A stretch of DNA of 64,000 nt, taken from Xestospongia bergquistia (lineage: Eukaryota; Porifera; Demospongiae; Haplosclerida; Petrosiidae). The notes below the pieces were generated by a model. It had not been told where the DNA came from, did no database searches, and was given only the letters and a program-made list of their open reading frames with translations. The stretch's first letter is position 1. Each line of letters opens with the position of its first letter. The position numbers and the translations under genes were made by a program. Of this stretch, positions 22,978-64,000 are shown piece after piece. Location: the NCBI GenBank assembly GCA_963965975.1, contig OZ014411.1, positions 3,023,001-3,087,000 of the forward strand. The letters run 5' to 3'.

Positions 22978-23608
22978 GGTTCTTGTCATTGTCTTTGTCA
23001 TATAACTGTAGTGACTCCTCTTCCTCGGTATTCACTTTAGAGTACTCACATTGAATAGAGAGGCGATCACTTTTTTTGTAATGTGGTTATTTGTTGTCCA
23101 TCATTAAAAGGTCCTCTCTTCAGTCACTGTATTCAAACAATGGTAGATATTATTCTATAGGGAAGTAAGGATGTTTCTATATTATCATGCTGGTTATTGG
23201 AAAATGTATATCAGTACTTTACTATATATGTTAGTGTACACAACAACTTACACAAGTCCTAAAATAGCAAATGTAACAACCACTAAAAGTACACCACTAA
23301 TGAATTATTCTATTCTTGTTGTCCCTGTTACTTTGTGGATTTGAAGTAAATTGTGGTTTGAATGTTGACTGTATTGTAGATATTGCTGATGTAGATAGAG
23401 ATGAAGATATTACTGGCATAGATATAGAGATGGAGATATTGTTGGCATAGATAGAGATGGAGATATTGTTGACATAGATAGTGATGGAGATGTTGTTGGC
23501 ATAGATAGCAATGGAGATGGTCTTTCATAGATGGTATTAGATATGTTGTTGGCATAGATAGAGATGAAGATGTTGGCATAGTTATAGATGAAGAGTTTGT
23601 TACTGAAA
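22978..23608 (-). pseudogene. Decayed tail and stalk/membrane exons, subfamily A
   Basis: The tail relic is at 22978-23160 and the stalk/membrane relic at about 23246-23608. The stalk keeps about five 27-bp-type repeats, but frame changes turn it into runs such as CQQYLHLYLCQQ. The tail has lost several bases in the tract equivalent to the acceptor region. It follows an SRCR3 relic, so SRCR4 and SRCR5 of this copy are deleted. Confidence 0.8.
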
Positions 23609-26039: not shown

Positions 26040-26580
26040 GTCTTCATCTTCATCAGATAACTGTAGTGGGACCTCCTCCTCAGTATTCAGTTTGGTATAC
26101 TCATATTGAATAGAGAGGGGATCACTTTTTGTAATGTGGGCATTTGTGGTCCATCATTAGAAGATCCTCTCTTCAATTGCTGTATTTGAACAATGGTACA
26201 TATTATTAGGATAACTCTACAGGGAAATAAGGATGTTTTATAATCCTGCTGCTAACTATTGGAAAATATATATCAGTACTTTACTATACTATTAGTGTAC
26301 ATAACAACTTACGCAAGTCCTAAAGTAGCAAATGCAACAACCACTAAAAGTACACTACTATTCAATACTCAATTCTTATTGTCCCTGTTACTTCGTGGAT
26401 TTGAAGTAAATTGTGGTTTGAACGTTGAGTGTATTATAGATATTGCTGATGTAGATAGATATGAAGATAGTACTGGCATAGATAGAGATGGAGCTGTTGC
26501 TGGCATAGATAGAGATGAAGATGTTGTTGTCTTTGATAGAGATGGAGATGTTGTTGGCATAGATAAAGTTTCTTACTGAA
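26040..26580 (-). pseudogene. Decayed tail and stalk/membrane exons, subfamily A (second set)
   Basis: Tail relic at about 26040-26222, stalk/membrane relic at about 26310-26577. The stalk repeat is recognisable (SISIYAS-type frame, SSLSMPA in another frame). The membrane segment has a deletion and frame shift. It is the upstream duplicate of the relic at 23.0-23.6 kb. Confidence 0.8.
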
Positions 26581-57329: not shown

Positions 57330-59341
57330 AACGTTAATTACAATAAAACATGTGTCCTATTTACAAGACAATTTAGCCACATTTCAACATAAGTATGGTT
57401 TTTCATTGCATAAACTTATGGAATACATTGAAACTATTCTTAGCTATAATGCTCAAAAGGGAATTTTAAAAGGAGATAAATGATGATATGGGGTATGTAT
57501 ACTTATAAGTAAACACATGAATTTATTCTACCAAACACTCTGATGAGCTCTCTTTGTAATTACATGTCTTACTTAACACTGTGACCACACTTTTTTTGTA
57601 AAACCTAAAACTGGCACTAATACTGATGTATGCAAAGGATCAAGCAAATGAAAGGACACAATTGAATATAATCATCTCAATTGACCAATCAGATTACATT
57701 ACCTGTACAGTTTCTGAGTAGTGTGGAATGAAATCTACACAAAAATAATTATTAGTTTATATTCAAACTCATAATCATCAAGCATTCCTTACTCTATATA
57801 AGGAAGATATTATTGATTATGAGTTTGAATATAAACTAATAATTAATTTTTATTTTCTGTGGATTTTTGAGTTCTGCCAAAATATAGCCAAAACTCTCTT
57901 AAATTACCATTGATAAACTTGTTATTATGTCTTTATGCTGACATAGGCCTTGCTAACTAGCTAGTAGGTTACTTGTCTTTATGGAACCAAAAAATATTAA
58001 AGACGTCAATGTATTATATTTTAAAATTTATAGTACAGAATGGTATATGGAGCTATGTAAATTCATGAAAACTATAATTAGTTGTTATAATACATAAGGT
58101 TTAAATTGTTCAAGTATTTAACATGACTAATACTTAGTTGATAATTTTTAACAAATAGATATATAAATAGTATGGATATCTATTATAAATGTAATGATAG
58201 ATTCTCGTTTATATGATGTATTTTAATGAGCAAAAGGCCTGCAATAGGCTTCACTATGTCAAATTATAATTATCTTGACCTAGCTCAGAAACTAATCGGA
58301 TCAGGGGATTTTAACACGTTCTGCCAATTTCTTTCAGGAAAAAAAATATGAAACTGTTAGAGGACTACCTTGTTTCAATTTTGGAATTTATCATTATGAA
58401 ATACAAACTACAACAAAAATAGACGTCCAATTCACGATTATTGCATATTCAAAAAGCACGCTTTACCAGGAATCGGCGATTGTCATTTAAAATTGTAAAA
58501 TCGCTATAAAATCGTCAATTGGCGAATTGCTATAATCGAGAATTCTCTGTAAAATCATAAATCAAGAGGTGAAATAATCAAGAATTCACAGTAAAATCGT
58601 GAATTGTGAAATATTATAATCATGAATTTCCGGTAAAATCGTGAACTTTGAATATGTAAATATCATGAATTACACTTCTATGATAATCGCGAATAGAACA
58701 CCTATTTTTGTAGTACTATATAACATAGACTAGGGAGTTATTAATAACTTGCTATTAGACATTATTTTTACTTTATTTTTGTTATTATATGCAATGGCAT
58801 TATGTAATGTATACTATGGTACTTATTCGACATCCTAAGTAGTGGGACAGCATGAAATTTTATATGGAATTTACTTAGGAGCATGGTACATAGTACCATA
58901 TACTGATTCATAATTGGCCTGGTATCCACAACTATCAGATGCATATATATAAACATATTATATATATATATATATATAGAGTAAATTACACAAGATCGGG
59001 CGGATCACTTTCGGCCGCCTCCCACAGGACAAACGTGCGAAAGAACGAACTTCTTTACCCTACTACCATAAAGTATAATCCTTTACTTGTTTATTCTGAT
59101 ACCTTTGATAATTTCTTATCTTTACTGTGCGGAGCAACAAAGTTTATAAAAAATATTTCGGGCACATGCGTAGGCGGACAACAATAATGTCAATTCGTAC
59201 GAGTGGCAAAACTCTTCTCACGATCAAGCAAACTGAGAAAGCTATGGCTGGCAGGATTGATTGATGACTGAACTACAACACCATAGCCAAACCATTTCTT
59301 TCAGCAAGGAGTTCACGTCTCCAAAGAGCAAAAGATCTGAA
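57330..59341. other. Gene-free stretch between the nested insertion and the pogo-like transposon
   Basis: 57345-57770 continues the duplicated flank seen at 42700-43140. 58440-58700 has diverged repeats of words like AAAATCGTGAATT. 58955-58978 is a TA microsatellite. 58985-59330 is richer in G+C and CpG (GATCGGGCGGATCACTTTCGG), but I recognise no gene or element family in it. Confidence 0.5.
57746..57845. repeat. Local inverted duplication (32-bp perfect arms)
   Basis: Arms 57746-57777 and 57814-57845 are perfect reverse complements with a 36-base spacer, and weaker pairing continues outward for about 20 bases. The homologous flank at 43.1 kb has only the left arm, so the right arm arose by copying here. 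Confidence 0.85.
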
Positions 59342-59378
59342 TGGGTGTGGACATGAGTATTCGGACACACCTTCATCA
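59342..59378 (+). repeat. Left terminal inverted repeat, 37 bp
   Basis: A perfect reverse complement of 63964-64000. The match breaks at the next inner base. The outer limit cannot be tested on the right side. Confidence 0.9.
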
Positions 59379-59404
59379 ATGATGGTCTAGCTTTATAATT
59401 ATTC

Positions 59405-59535
59405 AACTGGTACGTTTATAGTCGTAAAGGACACAACTGTCTTCTAATGGCTTTTGAAATGTAGAACTTTAGACATCAAATAATTTAGAGTTTGCATGCA
59501 GTGCGCTGTGGTGTTAGAGATGGTGTATCTCAGTG
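59405..59535 (+). pseudogene. Inverted, decayed copy of the transposase DNA-binding exon start
   Basis: The plus strand reads TATAGTCGTAAAGGACA and later TTTAGAGTTTGCATGCAGTGC. These are homologous to the first part of the catalytic exon (minus strand 63551-63420: CTAGTCGTAAAGGACA and TTTAGAATTTGCATGCAGTGC), with a deletion between and stops. It faces the opposite way to the intact gene and lies just inside the left terminal repeat. Confidence 0.7.
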
Positions 59536-59600
59536 ATGTATGCAAGTTGAATGCAATGCTTGTCATTTGAGACTGCAGTCAAAAACCATTAATACAAAAA

Positions 59601-62600
59601 TTAACAGTTTTCACAAACATAATTAAAGTCTTTTCTCTTGGCAACAGTGTATAATACATTGACACAACTGCAATGGTACCACTGCAGGCAATTCGAACAA
59701 TTCACCCAAGTGGTTGCCCTTGGATGAGCACAAGTTTTATGTAGGCAATTACTAACTAGAATAGAAACTATTAATGATAACTGGCCAATAAAATTCATTT
59801 CACCTCTAACACTTTTCTTCATTTCCTTAGATGTAGCTTTAAGAGTACAAGTGCCATAAGTGCCTAGATAGTAATAGCAATTTGTGACAAAAACACTGAC
59901 AAGTTAACATACCTGTTGATGAAGGTTCAGCAGTAGCTTTAGCACGTGTGAGACTACAAGTGCTATTAGTGCCTAGATAGTAATACCAACTTGTGACAGG
60001 AACACTGACAACTTAACATACCTGTTGTTGAAGCTGTAGCTTTAGCACGAGTGAGACTACGAGTGCTATTAGTGCCTAGATAGTAATACCAATTTGTGAC
60101 AGGAACACTGACAACTTAACATACCTGTTGTTGAAGCTGTAGCTTTAGCACGAGTGAGACTACGAGTGCTATAAGTGCCTAGATAGTAATACCAATTTGT
60201 GACAGGAACACTGACAATTTAACATACCTGTTGTTGAAGCTGTAGCTTTAGCACGAGTGAGACTACGAGTGCTATAAGTGCCTAGATAGTAATACCAATT
60301 TGTGACAGGAACACTGACAACTTAACATACCTGTTGTTGAAGCTGTAGCTTTAGCACGAGTGAGACTACGAGTGCTATTAGTGCCTAGATAGTAATACCA
60401 ATTTGTGACAGAAACACTGACAACTTAACATACCTGTTGATGAAGGTTCAGCAGTAGCTTTAGCACGTGTGAGACTACAAGTGCTATCAGTGCCTAGATA
60501 GTAATACCAATTTGTGACAGGAACACTGACAACTTAACATACCTGTTGTTGAAGCAGTAGCTTTAGCACGTGTGAGACTACGAGTGCTATTAGTGCCTAG
60601 ATAGTAATACCAATTTGTGACAGAAACACTGACAAGTTAACATACCTGCTGATGAAGGTTCAGCAGTAGCTTTAGCACGTGTGAGACTACGAGTGCTATT
60701 AGTGCCTAGATAGTAATACCAATTTGTGACAGAAACACTGACAAGTTAACATACCTGTTGATGAAGGTTCAGCAGTAGCTTTAGCACGTGTGAGACTACA
60801 AGTGCTATTAGTGCCTAGATAGTAATACCAATTTGTGACAGGAACACTGACAACTTAACATACCTGTTGTTGAAGCTGTAGCTTTAGCACGAGTGAGACT
60901 ACGAGTGCTATAAGTGCCTAGATAGTAATACCAATTTGTGACAGAAGCACTGACAAGTTAACATACCTGTTGATGAAGGTTCAGCAGTAGCTTTAGGACG
61001 TGTGAGACTACGAGTGCTATCAGTGCCTAGATAGTAATACCAATTTGTGACAGAAACACTGACAAGTTAATATATGGTACCTGTTAAAGAAGAAGGTTCG
61101 GCAACAGCTTCAGCACATGTGAGAGTAGTGGTAAATATATCAGAAAAAGTGGAGTGGTAAAAACCTACAAGTGCAACTTTCCAGTACATGATTATTTATA
61201 TAATACCGTAAATCTGGAATATTTCATGTTGAAAAATATTCACGTATTAAATTTTTTCTTTGATTTATTTTCGTATATTCCATTGTTCCACCATATTGCA
61301 CATGCGCATAAATTAATATTTGCTTAAATAATTTTTGTACATCATCACAAGTACAAAAAATTACGTAATGACGAAATTCTCCTGATTTACGGTACCTTCA
61401 TTAGAAATGTTTCCCAGTGATTGATTATCTCCAAAGATAGGAAGAAGCAAGCTACATGTACCAGTGCATGTTGTATGGTGTTACTTGACACTCACAATGC
61501 TTACCATCATCAAAGCTAGAGTGCAATTGAGAACCTCTTCTACATGTTGAAGACTTTTCAAGGGGTGCACTTCCTATTATTAATAATACTAACACAAAAG
61601 GTCCTTTTTCTTACGTTTATTCAATTTTTTAATCCTGGCTTGATCTAATGAGATATAAATGCGATTACATGTATTGGGATATCAACAATCTTACTTCTCT
61701 TCTCCTTTCGTTCATCCCTTTTTCTCAGTTCTTCCTGCTTCTTCCTTTCCTTTCTTTCTATAACTCTGAGATTCTCTTCACTAGTCAAAACTTTTCCACT
61801 ATGTTTTGGTGGTATAACTGGAAGCTTACAAAAGGGTACAGGTCTTTCTTCATTTATGACTTTTGAAAGAGTAGACGATCGTTGGAGATTGGCAGGGTGT
61901 TCAAATTGTTTTGGAGGAACATAGAGAAATGGAAGCATAGTATAGTCATTGCAAATACTCTTTTGAGACTGACAATTGAATACAGGTACCACTACTTGAA
62001 ATGTATCGGGAGTGCAGGATGGATACATGTAAGGATTAAATGCAGGAACCAATGAATGTGTAGCCATATCACTGTTAACAAGTGTGATATCATGTGACAA
62101 AGGAGAACCTAGATTGGCCTCTGGATTAACATCATTAGATGACTGATGCATTTCTTTCCATGAATTGTAACGATTATCAGAATCTATATCATAACCTTCT
62201 TCAAATCTTCTCTGAAAACGTAACTCTTCTTCCTGTGTGAATTCAGGAACAGCAGATCTGCATTGTTGCCGCACAGGGCTATACAGTGGTATAAACTTCA
62301 ACCCAGTGCGCTGTGCAAGAGTACTGGTGGTTGTATCTTTCACCAGTGGAACAATCATATCCCTCTTCAAGGGGTAAATCCCTGTACACTTGAAACCAGC
62401 CTGAATATTTTTTAAAGTCATTGAATGCATCCATGCTTCACCAAACAATTTGGAAAACGTGAACCTGCTAACAACCTTCCCAGGATTGTCAGCCAAAAAC
62501 TTCCGACACACTTCTTTCCAAGAGGTTTTTAATGGACCAAATGGGCCCTTATCTAGTGGTTGTGTTTCATGTGATGAATGAGGTGGTAGACAGAAAATTA

Positions 62601-63724
62601 TCACTTTCTCCTCAGCAGCTTTACTGATAACTGAAGGATTGTAATGTGATGAGTGGCCATCTAGTAATAGGAGTAGAGGACGAGCAGCAGGAGCATGAGG
62701 CAAAAAGTGATGTACAAACCATAAATCAAATAATTCACTAGTTATCCACCCTGAATCTGAGAGACCATACATAGTCCCAGGGACCTCACCATCACACATT
62801 GCTGGTCTAAGACATTTCCTGTCAAACAGCACAAAAGGTGGCAAACAATATCCAGCAGCATTACAACAAGCAAGGACAGTCATCTGGGTTTTATTTCCCG
62901 TTGTTACTGCTCTCGGATGTTTGATACCTTTAGCCACTATGCCCTTTGGAAACTTTGGATTGAGAGGCATTCCCGTTTCGTCGCAATTAAATATCTGATT
63001 AGGTTTTGAAACAAGGTCATTATCCAGAACTGTCTGCTCTAGTAAATCAAAGTAATTACTTAATACATCAAGAGTGCATGCTGCTGCACGATTATTGGCA
63101 AGTTGCTCAGTGGTCCGAAGTGAAATTTCGGAATGCCGCTTCTTAAAACCTTCCCACCACCCACTGGACACTGTTACATTTTTGCCTTTTTGGTTAACTG
63201 CAATTTGAACTAATGACAAGACTTCCTTTCTTGTTCGTGGGAATCCAATCTTTGCTGTTTCCAAAATAAAGGATACCAACTCTTCTTCTTCACTTTCTGT
63301 CAAATACCTTTGACCACTTTTACTACCACTTATTACCTTTCCGGACACGTGATCTTGTAGCGTAGATTTGGGTATTTGGTACTCCTCTGCTGCTTGTCTA
63401 ATAGATATGCCATCTTTAATAGCACTGCATGCAAATTCTAAATCGCTTAATGTCCAAGTCCTATATTTTGTAGGCCGAGTAGAAGACGATGGAATAATAG
63501 ATGTTGAGCAAAATATATGTTCACATAAGGGAAGTGTTTTGTCCTTTACGACTAGATAAAATAATTATAATAACACAAACATTGACAAGTTAACATACTT
63601 GTTGATGAAGAAGTAACTTTAGCATGAGTGAGACTATGAATGCTACTAGTATCTAGATAATAATTAATAGTAACATAAACACTAGTAAGTTAAACATACC
63701 TGTTAATGTATAACCTTCAGCCAT
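59601..63724 (-). CDS. pogo/Tigger-like transposase with tandem micro-exons and PHD-like finger
   Basis: Exons: 63700-63724 (MAEGYTLT), 63599-63652, 61695-63551, 61505-61573, 61396-61428, 61081-61164, eleven micro-exons (59913-61026), 59601-59863. All junctions are phase 1; the sum is 3009 nt, 1002 codons plus TAA, without a stop. Domains: psq-type helix-turn-helix about 57-94 (WTLSDLEFACSAI, ISIRQAAEEY), CENP-B type about 109-174, DDE_1 nuclease about 200-390 with Asp217 (NCDETG), Asp324 (LLLDGHSSH) and Asp360 (QPLDKG), then a charged tail, a repeat linker about 708-915, and a C-terminal PHD-like finger (WVNCSNCLQWYHCSC...CENC). It should bind the transposon ends and cut DNA. The start was chosen at the ATG just before a GTATGT donor; the frame stays open upstream through the subterminal repeats, so an earlier start is possible. 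The long clean frame suggests a recent or maintained gene. Confidence 0.85.
59913..61026 (-). repeat. Tandem array of eleven micro-exons (103/109-bp units)
   Basis: Micro-exons at 60967-61026, 60864-60917, 60755-60814, 60646-60705, 60543-60596, 60434-60493, 60331-60384, 60228-60281, 60125-60178, 60022-60075 and 59913-59972. Five are 60 nt and six are 54 nt. The introns are all 49 nt, run from GTATGTTAA to TACTATCTAG, and are nearly identical. Each exon codes GTNSTRSLTRAKATASTT or the longer form with AEPSST. The same motif starts the PHD exon (GTYGTCTLKATS) and, diverged, ends the exon at 61081-61164 (LTCAEAVAEPSSLT). DNA unit length differs only by the 6 nt in the exon. Confidence 0.92.
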
Positions 63725-63737
63725 AGCTTTAGAGAGT

Positions 63738-63955
63738 GACCACGTTAAGAGACCACGTTGACAGCAAAGGCTAGCAAAGGCCACAATGAGAGCAACAACC
63801 ACGTTGAGAGCAAATGCCACAATGAGAGTGAACACGTTGAGAGTAAAGACCACAATGACGTTGAGAGCAAAGTTAAAGGTGAGAATGAGAGCAATAATGA
63901 GAGCAATAACCAATTTGAGAGCAAAGTGCAAACACGTTGAGCCACGTTGAGAGCA
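63738..63955. repeat. Subterminal repeats inside the right end of the transposon
   Basis: Repeated words CACGTTGAGAGCA (about seven close or partial copies) and AATGAGAGCAA (about four), irregularly spaced between the start codon and the right terminal repeat. Such arrays are often transposase binding sites. Nothing comparable lies inside the left end. Confidence 0.7.
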
Positions 63956-63963
63956 CGCTACAC

Positions 63964-64000
63964 TGATGAAGGTGTGTCCGAATACTCATGTCCACACCCA
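63964..64000 (-). repeat. Right terminal inverted repeat, 37 bp, at the window edge
   Basis: A perfect reverse complement of 59342-59378, ending ...CATGTCCACACCCA at the last base. Confidence 0.9.

Follow-up and report, generated by a model that had tools for sequence, protein, structure and literature searches.

What keeps eleven near-identical small exons, separated by introns of a single length, inside a transposase gene? The question is raised by a 64,000-nucleotide stretch of the genome of the sponge Xestospongia bergquistia (contig OZ014411.1, positions 3,023,001 to 3,087,000; hereafter the window, whose own numbering is used below), which contains on its minus strand a transposon of the pogo superfamily. 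In this transposon, the array of small exons lies between the nuclease exon and a C-terminal PHD finger. The array is probably a length-variable, disordered, Ser/Thr-rich and mostly basic tether which links the pogo transposase to its PHD reader.

The transposon and its exon array

The transposon is 5385 bp long (G000:C1:3081979-3087363) and extends from position 58979 past the end of the window; its left end is at G000:C1:3087363, and about 363 bp of the left terminal inverted repeat (TIR) are outside the window. Directly inside this TIR, the region 63773-63909 contains short direct repeats of type GCTCTCAACGTGG, putative subterminal binding sites. The nuclease exon encodes HTH_psq (29.2 bits, above the cut-off of 20.4), HTH_Tnp_Tc5 (22.0 bits, slightly below the cut-off of 22.2) and DDE_1 (Pfam E 1e-20) domains, with a catalytic DDD triad formed by D217, D324 and D360, the last two separated by 35 residues (DD35D spacing). 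With its DDD core, its set of HTH domains, a TA duplication and TIRs, the element belongs to the pogo superfamily (ITm group), and the domain set and DD35D spacing fit a Fot/Fot-like placement within it. A search of the genome (146 Mb, 21 contigs) found 15 near-identical copies of the element, which is recently active. One of them, L021, is inserted at a TATA in the nuclease exon of another copy of the same element (L022/L023), where the TA target duplication is visible by comparison with the uninterrupted window copy. The remaining copy ends show TA, except those of L017 (5' end) and L018 (both ends); L024 has neither the first exons nor part of the right end, and its right end was looked for and not found.

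The landmark-based gene model (Table 1) contains 20 exons and 19 junctions, all of them phase 1, and its spliced frame is open for 996 aa. Two claims of an earlier, sequence-only reading of this DNA agree with the model: a transposase gene with a PHD-like finger, since DDE_1 is found by Pfam and PHD matches by phmmer against PDB, and a structure in which every junction is phase 1. The same reading gave a frame of 1002 codons, versus 996 aa in the model. The segment 59863-59601, which had been taken as a single exon, very probably is split by a 48-nt phase-1 intron (59803-59756) into an extra degenerate unit and a separate PHD exon. Without this predicted intron the frame is also open, for 1012 aa; the segment is taken as an intron because read-through adds a hydrophobic stretch ahead of the PHD finger, and because the PHD exon of the related locus L046 has its first zinc ligand within a few residues of its start. 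Intron 6 (61395-61165; 231 nt) contains an AT-rich inverted repeat, TACCGTAAATC...GATTTACGGTA, which was considered as a foreign miniature inverted-repeat transposable element; a 228-bp query matched the 15 element copies only, and own mobility is therefore unsupported.

Tandem Repeats Finder (TRF) shows a tandem array at 59842-61074, with a period of 103 (11.7 copies, score 1874) and one of 212 (5.8 copies, score 1907). The array contains eleven exons at 61026-59913 on the minus strand, of 60, 54, 60, 60, 54, 60, 54, 54, 54, 54 and 60 nt, each unit with an ...CTATCTAG acceptor and a GTATGTTAA donor, and the ten introns between these exons and the one after them are all 49 nt. TRF and the model together confirm the eleven tandem phase-1 small exons with 49-nt introns proposed before. 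The exons had been called micro-exons: they are indeed small, and their 54-60 nt exceed most definitions of a micro-exon, which are shorter. The peptide encoded by the array is 208 aa long and contains 98 Ser+Thr, 30 Lys+Arg and 7 Asp+Glu. Unit-like sequence is also present upstream of the nuclease: the region 63578-63732, which contains exon 2, shows a 78% match to the array, and an 18-column match (E 0.008) near the left end, at about 63739-63724 and adjoining exon 1, looks like a further diverged unit rather than a binding site.

Arrays in the genomic copies and in related subfamilies

The window unit was found in all 15 copies of the element and at no other place in the genome (15 array places; the counts are lower bounds). 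Copies L009-L022 and L024 contain, in order, 11, 11, 10, 9, 12, 11, 11, 10, 10, 6, 10, 10, 10, 10 and 11 units; L023 is the second half of the L022 copy and is not counted separately. Gain or loss of whole units between copies, which had been predicted from the window, is thus observed as a range of 6-12 units across the 15 copies, and the array peptide is 112, 168, 208 and 226 aa long in the four copies for which it was computed. The 152 parsed units include 30 exon types and 13 intron types, with exons of 54 or 60 nt only and introns of 49 nt only; all 152, selected by a parser which requires AG plus a donor-like motif, are in frame and show no in-frame stop. In an exon-core search, which also picks up some exon 2 copies and matches the donor fuzzily, all 164 unit cores have retained both GT and, at its expected position, AG. 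In copy L018, the core of the nuclease is interrupted by a stop.

A second family includes 18 loci (L025-L042) with 70-77% nt identity in the nuclease. It shows an array at the same place, with a 115-bp unit formed by a 66-nt exon and a 49-nt intron in phase 1 (consensus ASSTQSRTRSQSQKATTVKSPI), and blastn finds no similarity between this unit and that of the window at E <= 1e-3. The parsed unit number is at least 3 in 16 of the 18 loci, and L026 and L027 both have a nuclease exon with a phase-1 end. L035 and its continuation L050 contain about 50 units (31.1 + 18.6 by TRF), ending in an ING-type PHD finger; 7 of the 28 parsed exons of L035 are 67 nt.

Seven more distant loci belong to four other subfamilies, and were chosen, not taken at random: four (L043-L046) at 49-56% aa identity (blastp 47-52%), picked for their long open nuclease frames, and three added at 47-50%. 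The fetched loci cover about one third of 103 nuclease matches. Arrays are present in all seven distant loci, and each subfamily shows other units. L044 shows 60-nt exons (DVVPTGQGTRSTRTQLTKER), with exons of 66 and 69 nt at the end, and L045 shows 57-nt exons (VTVPVIESSTVTRGATERG) and a PHD-like pattern seen by eye. L043 has exons of 84 and 60 nt plus one of 162 nt, with an acceptor ...TTAG; 15 of its 16 exons are multiples of three, a pattern broken by a single 94-nt first exon. L046-L049 contain a two-exon 248-bp unit (GRKRCTRSTSKRGEEEIGLSEYDKNGLSDN + ETTLEQSKTLPKNSQIS), present 4, 4, 4 and 7.9 times, respectively, and in L046 the exons alternate between about 90 and about 51 nt. In L043, L044 and L046 the donor of the nuclease exon has phase 1, and splicing L046 at phase-1 junctions gives an open frame of 877 codons, up to the PHD stop and counted with no start codon chosen. 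Since the window unit occurs in all 15 copies and only there, and relatives carry arrays of other units at the same place, the array is beyond chance.

Nuclease matches on C5, C6, C7, C10 and C15, about 28 at 47-48% identity, show similar stop patterns and lie on each contig in runs mostly 110-175 kb apart, which suggests that these spaced runs reflect segmental repeats, long and in tandem, in the host genome. Outside this genome, the named nuclease relatives among the matches listed (best 120 of 695) belong to Amphimedon queenslandica and Dysidea avara, and one listed relative is a partial protein from the metagenome-assembled genome of a symbiont of the sponge Iophon. No related locus was confirmed in viral and other genome contig collections.

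Frame, composition and array length

Tandem repeats of varying copy number inside a transposon might be a minisatellite which serves as transposase-binding or spacer DNA, with an accidental exon-intron appearance. This is highly improbable, because the exons are multiples of three while intron lengths are mixed, the splice dinucleotides are preserved, the frame is open across array and PHD finger in two subfamilies, the unit sequence changes between subfamilies, and unit and TIR share just 7-8-nt matches. Multiples of three account for 149 of 160 exons versus 52 of 158 introns of the second family, which upholds the coding-frame selection suggested for the array in the sequence-only reading. 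Among distinct departures from the modal length, 15 of 18 in exons and 3 of 12 in introns are multiples of three (Fisher p = 0.002), a test which compares distinct lengths, not independent events, and leaves out L043, the first unit of L044 (63 nt, decayed) and the first intron of L045 (184 nt). Of the 86 distinct 66-nt exons, 6 contain an in-frame stop; read in the two alternative frames, 19 and 54 of them do. Frame-breaking units, which had been proposed as a sign against a coding array, are absent from the 15 sister copies, but exons which are not multiples of three are present in five of the 18 second-family loci (L032, L035, L040, L041 and L042). L032 and L035 also carry nuclease stops, and in L040-L042 similarity to the nuclease begins at base 542 of its 1851. 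Nuclease stops are present in 12 of the 14 second-family loci in the nuclease listing and absent from L026 and L027 (L039-L042 are outside the rows used for these counts); decay of units, both in length and in splice sites, is therefore expected in this family.

The sequence of the exons shows another picture than their frame. The ratio of nonsynonymous to synonymous substitution (dN/dS) in the nuclease is 0.13 and 0.14 for the window versus L026 and L027, respectively, with dS near 1.5, close to saturation, and 0.82 for the recent pair L026 and L027. The corresponding ratio of differences (pN/pS) in the array is 1.22 in the second family (1.11 without CpG codons, 1.33 for L026 and L027 alone), and 1.21 in the first family pooled. 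Within the window array it is 0.69, and by exon type it is 0.63 for the 54-nt and 8.5 for the 60-nt exons, small sets which are noisy. Amino-acid conservation within units, for which dN/dS had been suggested as a check, is thus not supported: pooled values are about 1.2, with no clear constraint. In the second family, exons vary more than introns (0.176 vs 0.120), and in the first family variability is about equal (exons 0.055 and 0.047 vs introns 0.060). The array looks selected for frame, perhaps for composition, and not for sequence.

These values also favour the strongest rival of the tether, in which the array is spliced and translated, its length has no effect, and selection only purges stops and frameshifts while the small phase-1 units slip, duplicate and are replaced. 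It differs from the tether only in whether length matters, and we consider it a serious possibility, somewhat short of even. Besides the exon pN/pS and the higher variability of second-family exons, a parsed unit number which ranges from 1 to about 50 with no fixed value is in its favour, as is the Dysidea protein P0031, which contains a PHD finger and no visible array and seemingly manages without one. Less easily accommodated are the arrays at the same place in all seven loci, a chosen sample, of the four other subfamilies, and the composition of the units: representative units of differing sequence, including one Amphimedon repeat, contain 26-50% Ser+Thr and 11-20% Lys+Arg (15% and 12% in the window nuclease), which is beyond the needs of the frame.

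Because the exon-intron unit is phase-symmetric and its exon a multiple of three, the frame stays open upon gain or loss of any whole unit, whether through slippage, through unequal exchange or in gap repair when the element transposes, and the array can lengthen and shorten freely. Spliced as modelled, the array would encode an extended, mostly basic and Ser/Thr-rich tether, probably disordered, which carries the PHD finger. The finger would be expected to read methylated H3K4 and thereby to guide or gate integration, and tether length may act on target choice or regulation.

Several observations weigh against the tether. The splicing of the array is predicted from sequence alone, and a whole-genome search with exon-exon junction patterns of both families, made with no positive control, found 0 retrocopies. 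An open frame from nuclease to PHD stop was established for the window model and L046 only, and for no second-family copy; L026 has one in-frame stop among its eight parsed array exons, and the PHD finger of L027 is readable only with a shift. Two of the 18 second-family loci (L037 and L039) contain one parsed unit each, and a splice dinucleotide is broken in 12 of 175 second-family units. The donor GT of exon 5 is lost in L016 and L020, L044 shows a decayed first unit and one stop in the PHD finger, and L045 has lost one acceptor, and its nuclease frame stops short of the donor, to which it would assign phase 2. The 15 near-identical copies are one lineage, and their agreement says little on selection. 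A PHD-like pattern is present in 15 of the 26 loci scanned, and the AlphaFold model of the window PHD finger is poor (predicted local distance difference test 52.7). A protein search with the window array and PHD gave no match at E <= 1e-3 among 7993 scored candidates, and one with the Amphimedon linker and PHD gave the self-match only. Since the array exons show no clear amino-acid constraint, a functional array length, which the sequence-only reading took as a linker dial, is hypothetical.

Retention of a P-element intron gives a truncated transposase, and by analogy the added introns could be a brake, which cuts the amount of full-length mRNA and yields, upon retention, a transposase with no PHD finger, possibly repressing or mistargeted. 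In the window model, retention of any single intron of 1-18 leads to a protein stop 4-24 codons past the exon, while retention of intron 19 gives read-through in an open frame. For array introns of the window family, the stop met upon retention lies downstream of the intron, not inside it, and 37 of 38 distinct 49-nt introns of the second family contain an in-frame stop. Such a brake is nevertheless rather improbable as the explanation of the array: stops past short retained introns are common by chance, and neither exons in multiples of three nor a Ser/Thr-rich composition are required by it. It is compatible with both the tether and an array whose length has no effect. In the part of the Amphimedon study available to us, intron retention is the most frequent type of alternative splicing (45% of events) and exon skipping represents 1.8% (PMC4432959). 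The same figures weaken the earlier suggestion that in-frame exon skipping is a source of diversity, and skipping, rare in this sponge, is unlikely to be the main use of the array.

PHD types and comparison with known systems

The zinc ligands of the window PHD finger follow, by eye, the C4HC3 pattern C-x4-C-x10-C-x2-C-x4-H-x2-C-x16-C-x2-C. The Pfam PHD match has 18.3 bits (E 0.0024), under the gathering score of 24 bits, and the closest PDB matches by phmmer are BPTF (7.6e-5) and KDM5B (9.5e-5); solved relatives near it include BPTF, KDM5A/B, DIDO1 and TAF3. The second-family finger is ING-type: the top 20 of 25 PDB matches belong to ING, YNG, png2 and PHO23 (best E 5.4e-16). The PHD fingers of BPTF, KDM5A/B, DIDO1, TAF3 and ING read H3K4me3.

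The window nuclease shows 69% identity to that of L026 over 582 aa and 47% to that of L046. By blastp, the window PHD finger shows 43% identity to L046 (E 4e-14), 36% to P0017, and just a 17-residue alignment to L026 (E 0.007). For the L026 finger, identity is 57% to Dysidea P0031 and 50% to Amphimedon P0030; between the nucleases of these two proteins and that of L026 it is 40-55%. Strong nt similarity between the window and the second family stops at 61690, the end of exon 3; the matches past this point are one of 18 nt in exon 4 (E 0.09), a few of 22 nt (E 0.3) and one of 26 nt in the TIR (E 0.002). Since PHD type does not follow nuclease relationship across subfamilies, the simplest reading is that subfamilies exchanged the 3' portion of the gene, with array and PHD finger moving as one; the comparison is pairwise, not a tree, the PHD sequences are short, and the breakpoint lies, on this evidence, upstream of the array. 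Such exchanges would be frame-safe, because all junctions are phase 1. That the phase-locked array itself is an in-frame recombination platform, where crossovers between related elements at any point of the array would yield an open chimeric transposase, swap reader fingers, reset tether length and change integration sites, is a more speculative and on balance unlikely proposal. In this view the window family, with a nuclease nearest to the ING-PHD family, a PHD finger nearest to a distant subfamily, and clear nt similarity to the former which stops upstream of the array, looks like a product of such an exchange.

The window element shares with Fot/Fot-like elements of pogo the HTH_psq, HTH_Tnp_Tc5 and DDE domains, DD35D, the TA duplication and TIRs (PMC7386202). 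In the accessible part of this survey (Gao et al., 2020), pogo elements range from 1.2 to 5.2 kb, transposases from 300 to 977 aa, and TIRs of 392-856 bp are reported in insects only; the window element differs in its 5.39 kb, 996 aa, TIR of about 400 bp, sponge host and 20-exon gene. The main text of the survey contains no word starting with 'PHD' or 'intron' (PMC7386202). RAG1/RAG2 share with the window a DDE-type recombinase joined to a PHD finger through a flexible charged hinge, and the part consulted of the preprint describes a RAG2 PHD finger which binds H3K4me3 and also inhibits transposition (PMC11844651). RAG differs in its separate RAG2 subunit and short acidic hinge (aa 388-409), versus one chain with a mostly basic, Ser/Thr-rich linker of variable length in the window; it is a worked precedent for a hinged PHD finger which both recruits and restrains a transposase-derived recombinase. 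Schistosome micro-exon genes, according to the portion of PMC5825161 consulted, also have much of their coding sequence in short symmetric exons, and some members duplicate an exon-length pattern. They are not transposons: their exons span 6-36 bp, their products are secreted or located at the surface and are diversified through alternative splicing, and an array of one near-identical exon-intron unit is absent from that description. The window array exons are symmetric but of 54-60 nt, outside the 6-36 bp range, and DDE_1 and the PHD-like finger point to a nuclear product.

The isoform X4 of Amphimedon queenslandica LOC109582507 (P0030), compared at the protein level, shows the same order as the window: HTH_psq and DDE_1, a repetitive Ser/Thr/Arg/Gly-rich linker with repeats of 17-22 aa, and an ING-like PHD finger; it differs in repeat unit and PHD type. 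Fibrillar collagen and elastin genes contain many phase-symmetric short exons in multiples of three which encode repeats and were expanded by duplication; these arrays belong to host genes, with ancient diverged exons, and we know of no comparable copy-to-copy variation of exon number in them. None of the titles listed in a literature search, whose scope leaves out most subscription papers and bioRxiv, deals with tandem exon arrays in transposases. As far as searched, the parts are known, and their combination and the recurrence of arrays are new.

It is mostly from ancient host genes that modular evolution through phase-symmetric exons has been inferred. In this genome, exon modularity is observable directly, since whole exons distinguish 15 near-identical copies from one another, and more or less distant sister subfamilies carry other units and different reader domains; this is a natural system for the gain and loss of exon-intron units, in which tuning of DDE transposase integration by linker length and reader type becomes testable. 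Transposases of the window type may be annotated as single open reading frame proteins which stop short of the array, and database entry P0001 ends inside intron 3.

Other features of the window

Table 1. Features of the window, with positions in window numbering.
Feature	Position	Strand	Basis
pogo-superfamily DNA transposon	58979..64000	-	right end 58979, target site duplication TA at 58977-58978
Right terminal inverted repeat, ~400 bp	58979..59380	.	3 mismatches up to position 400, measured on sister copy L010
Exon 1 (ATG, start codon assumed)	63700..63724	-	unit-like by eye
Exon 2, 54 nt, diverged array unit upstream of nuclease	63599..63652	-	similarity to array, model
Exon 3: HTH_psq, HTH_Tnp_Tc5, DDE_1 (DD35D), basic tail	61695..63551	-	Pfam, model
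Exon 4, 30 nt	61615..61644	-	model; weak 18-nt match (E 0.09) to second family
Exon 5, 69 nt	61505..61573	-	model
Exon 6, 33 nt	61396..61428	-	model
Exon 7, 84 nt	61081..61164	-	model; 3' part unit-like by eye
Exons 8-18: eleven phase-1 60/54-nt exons and ten 49-nt introns	59913..61026	-	TRF, model
Exon 19, degenerate 60-nt unit (predicted)	59804..59863	-	model
48-nt phase-1 intron (predicted)	59756..59803	-	overlooked in earlier model
Exon 20: C-terminal PHD finger (BPTF/KDM5-like by sequence) and stop	59601..59755	-	Pfam, PDB phmmer, model

Elsewhere in the window, three separate minisatellites (745-1070, 23378-23601 and 26438-26565) have a common 27-bp unit of type GATATTGTTGACATAGATAGAGATGAA, which in one frame shows, by eye, an acidic nine-residue repeat.

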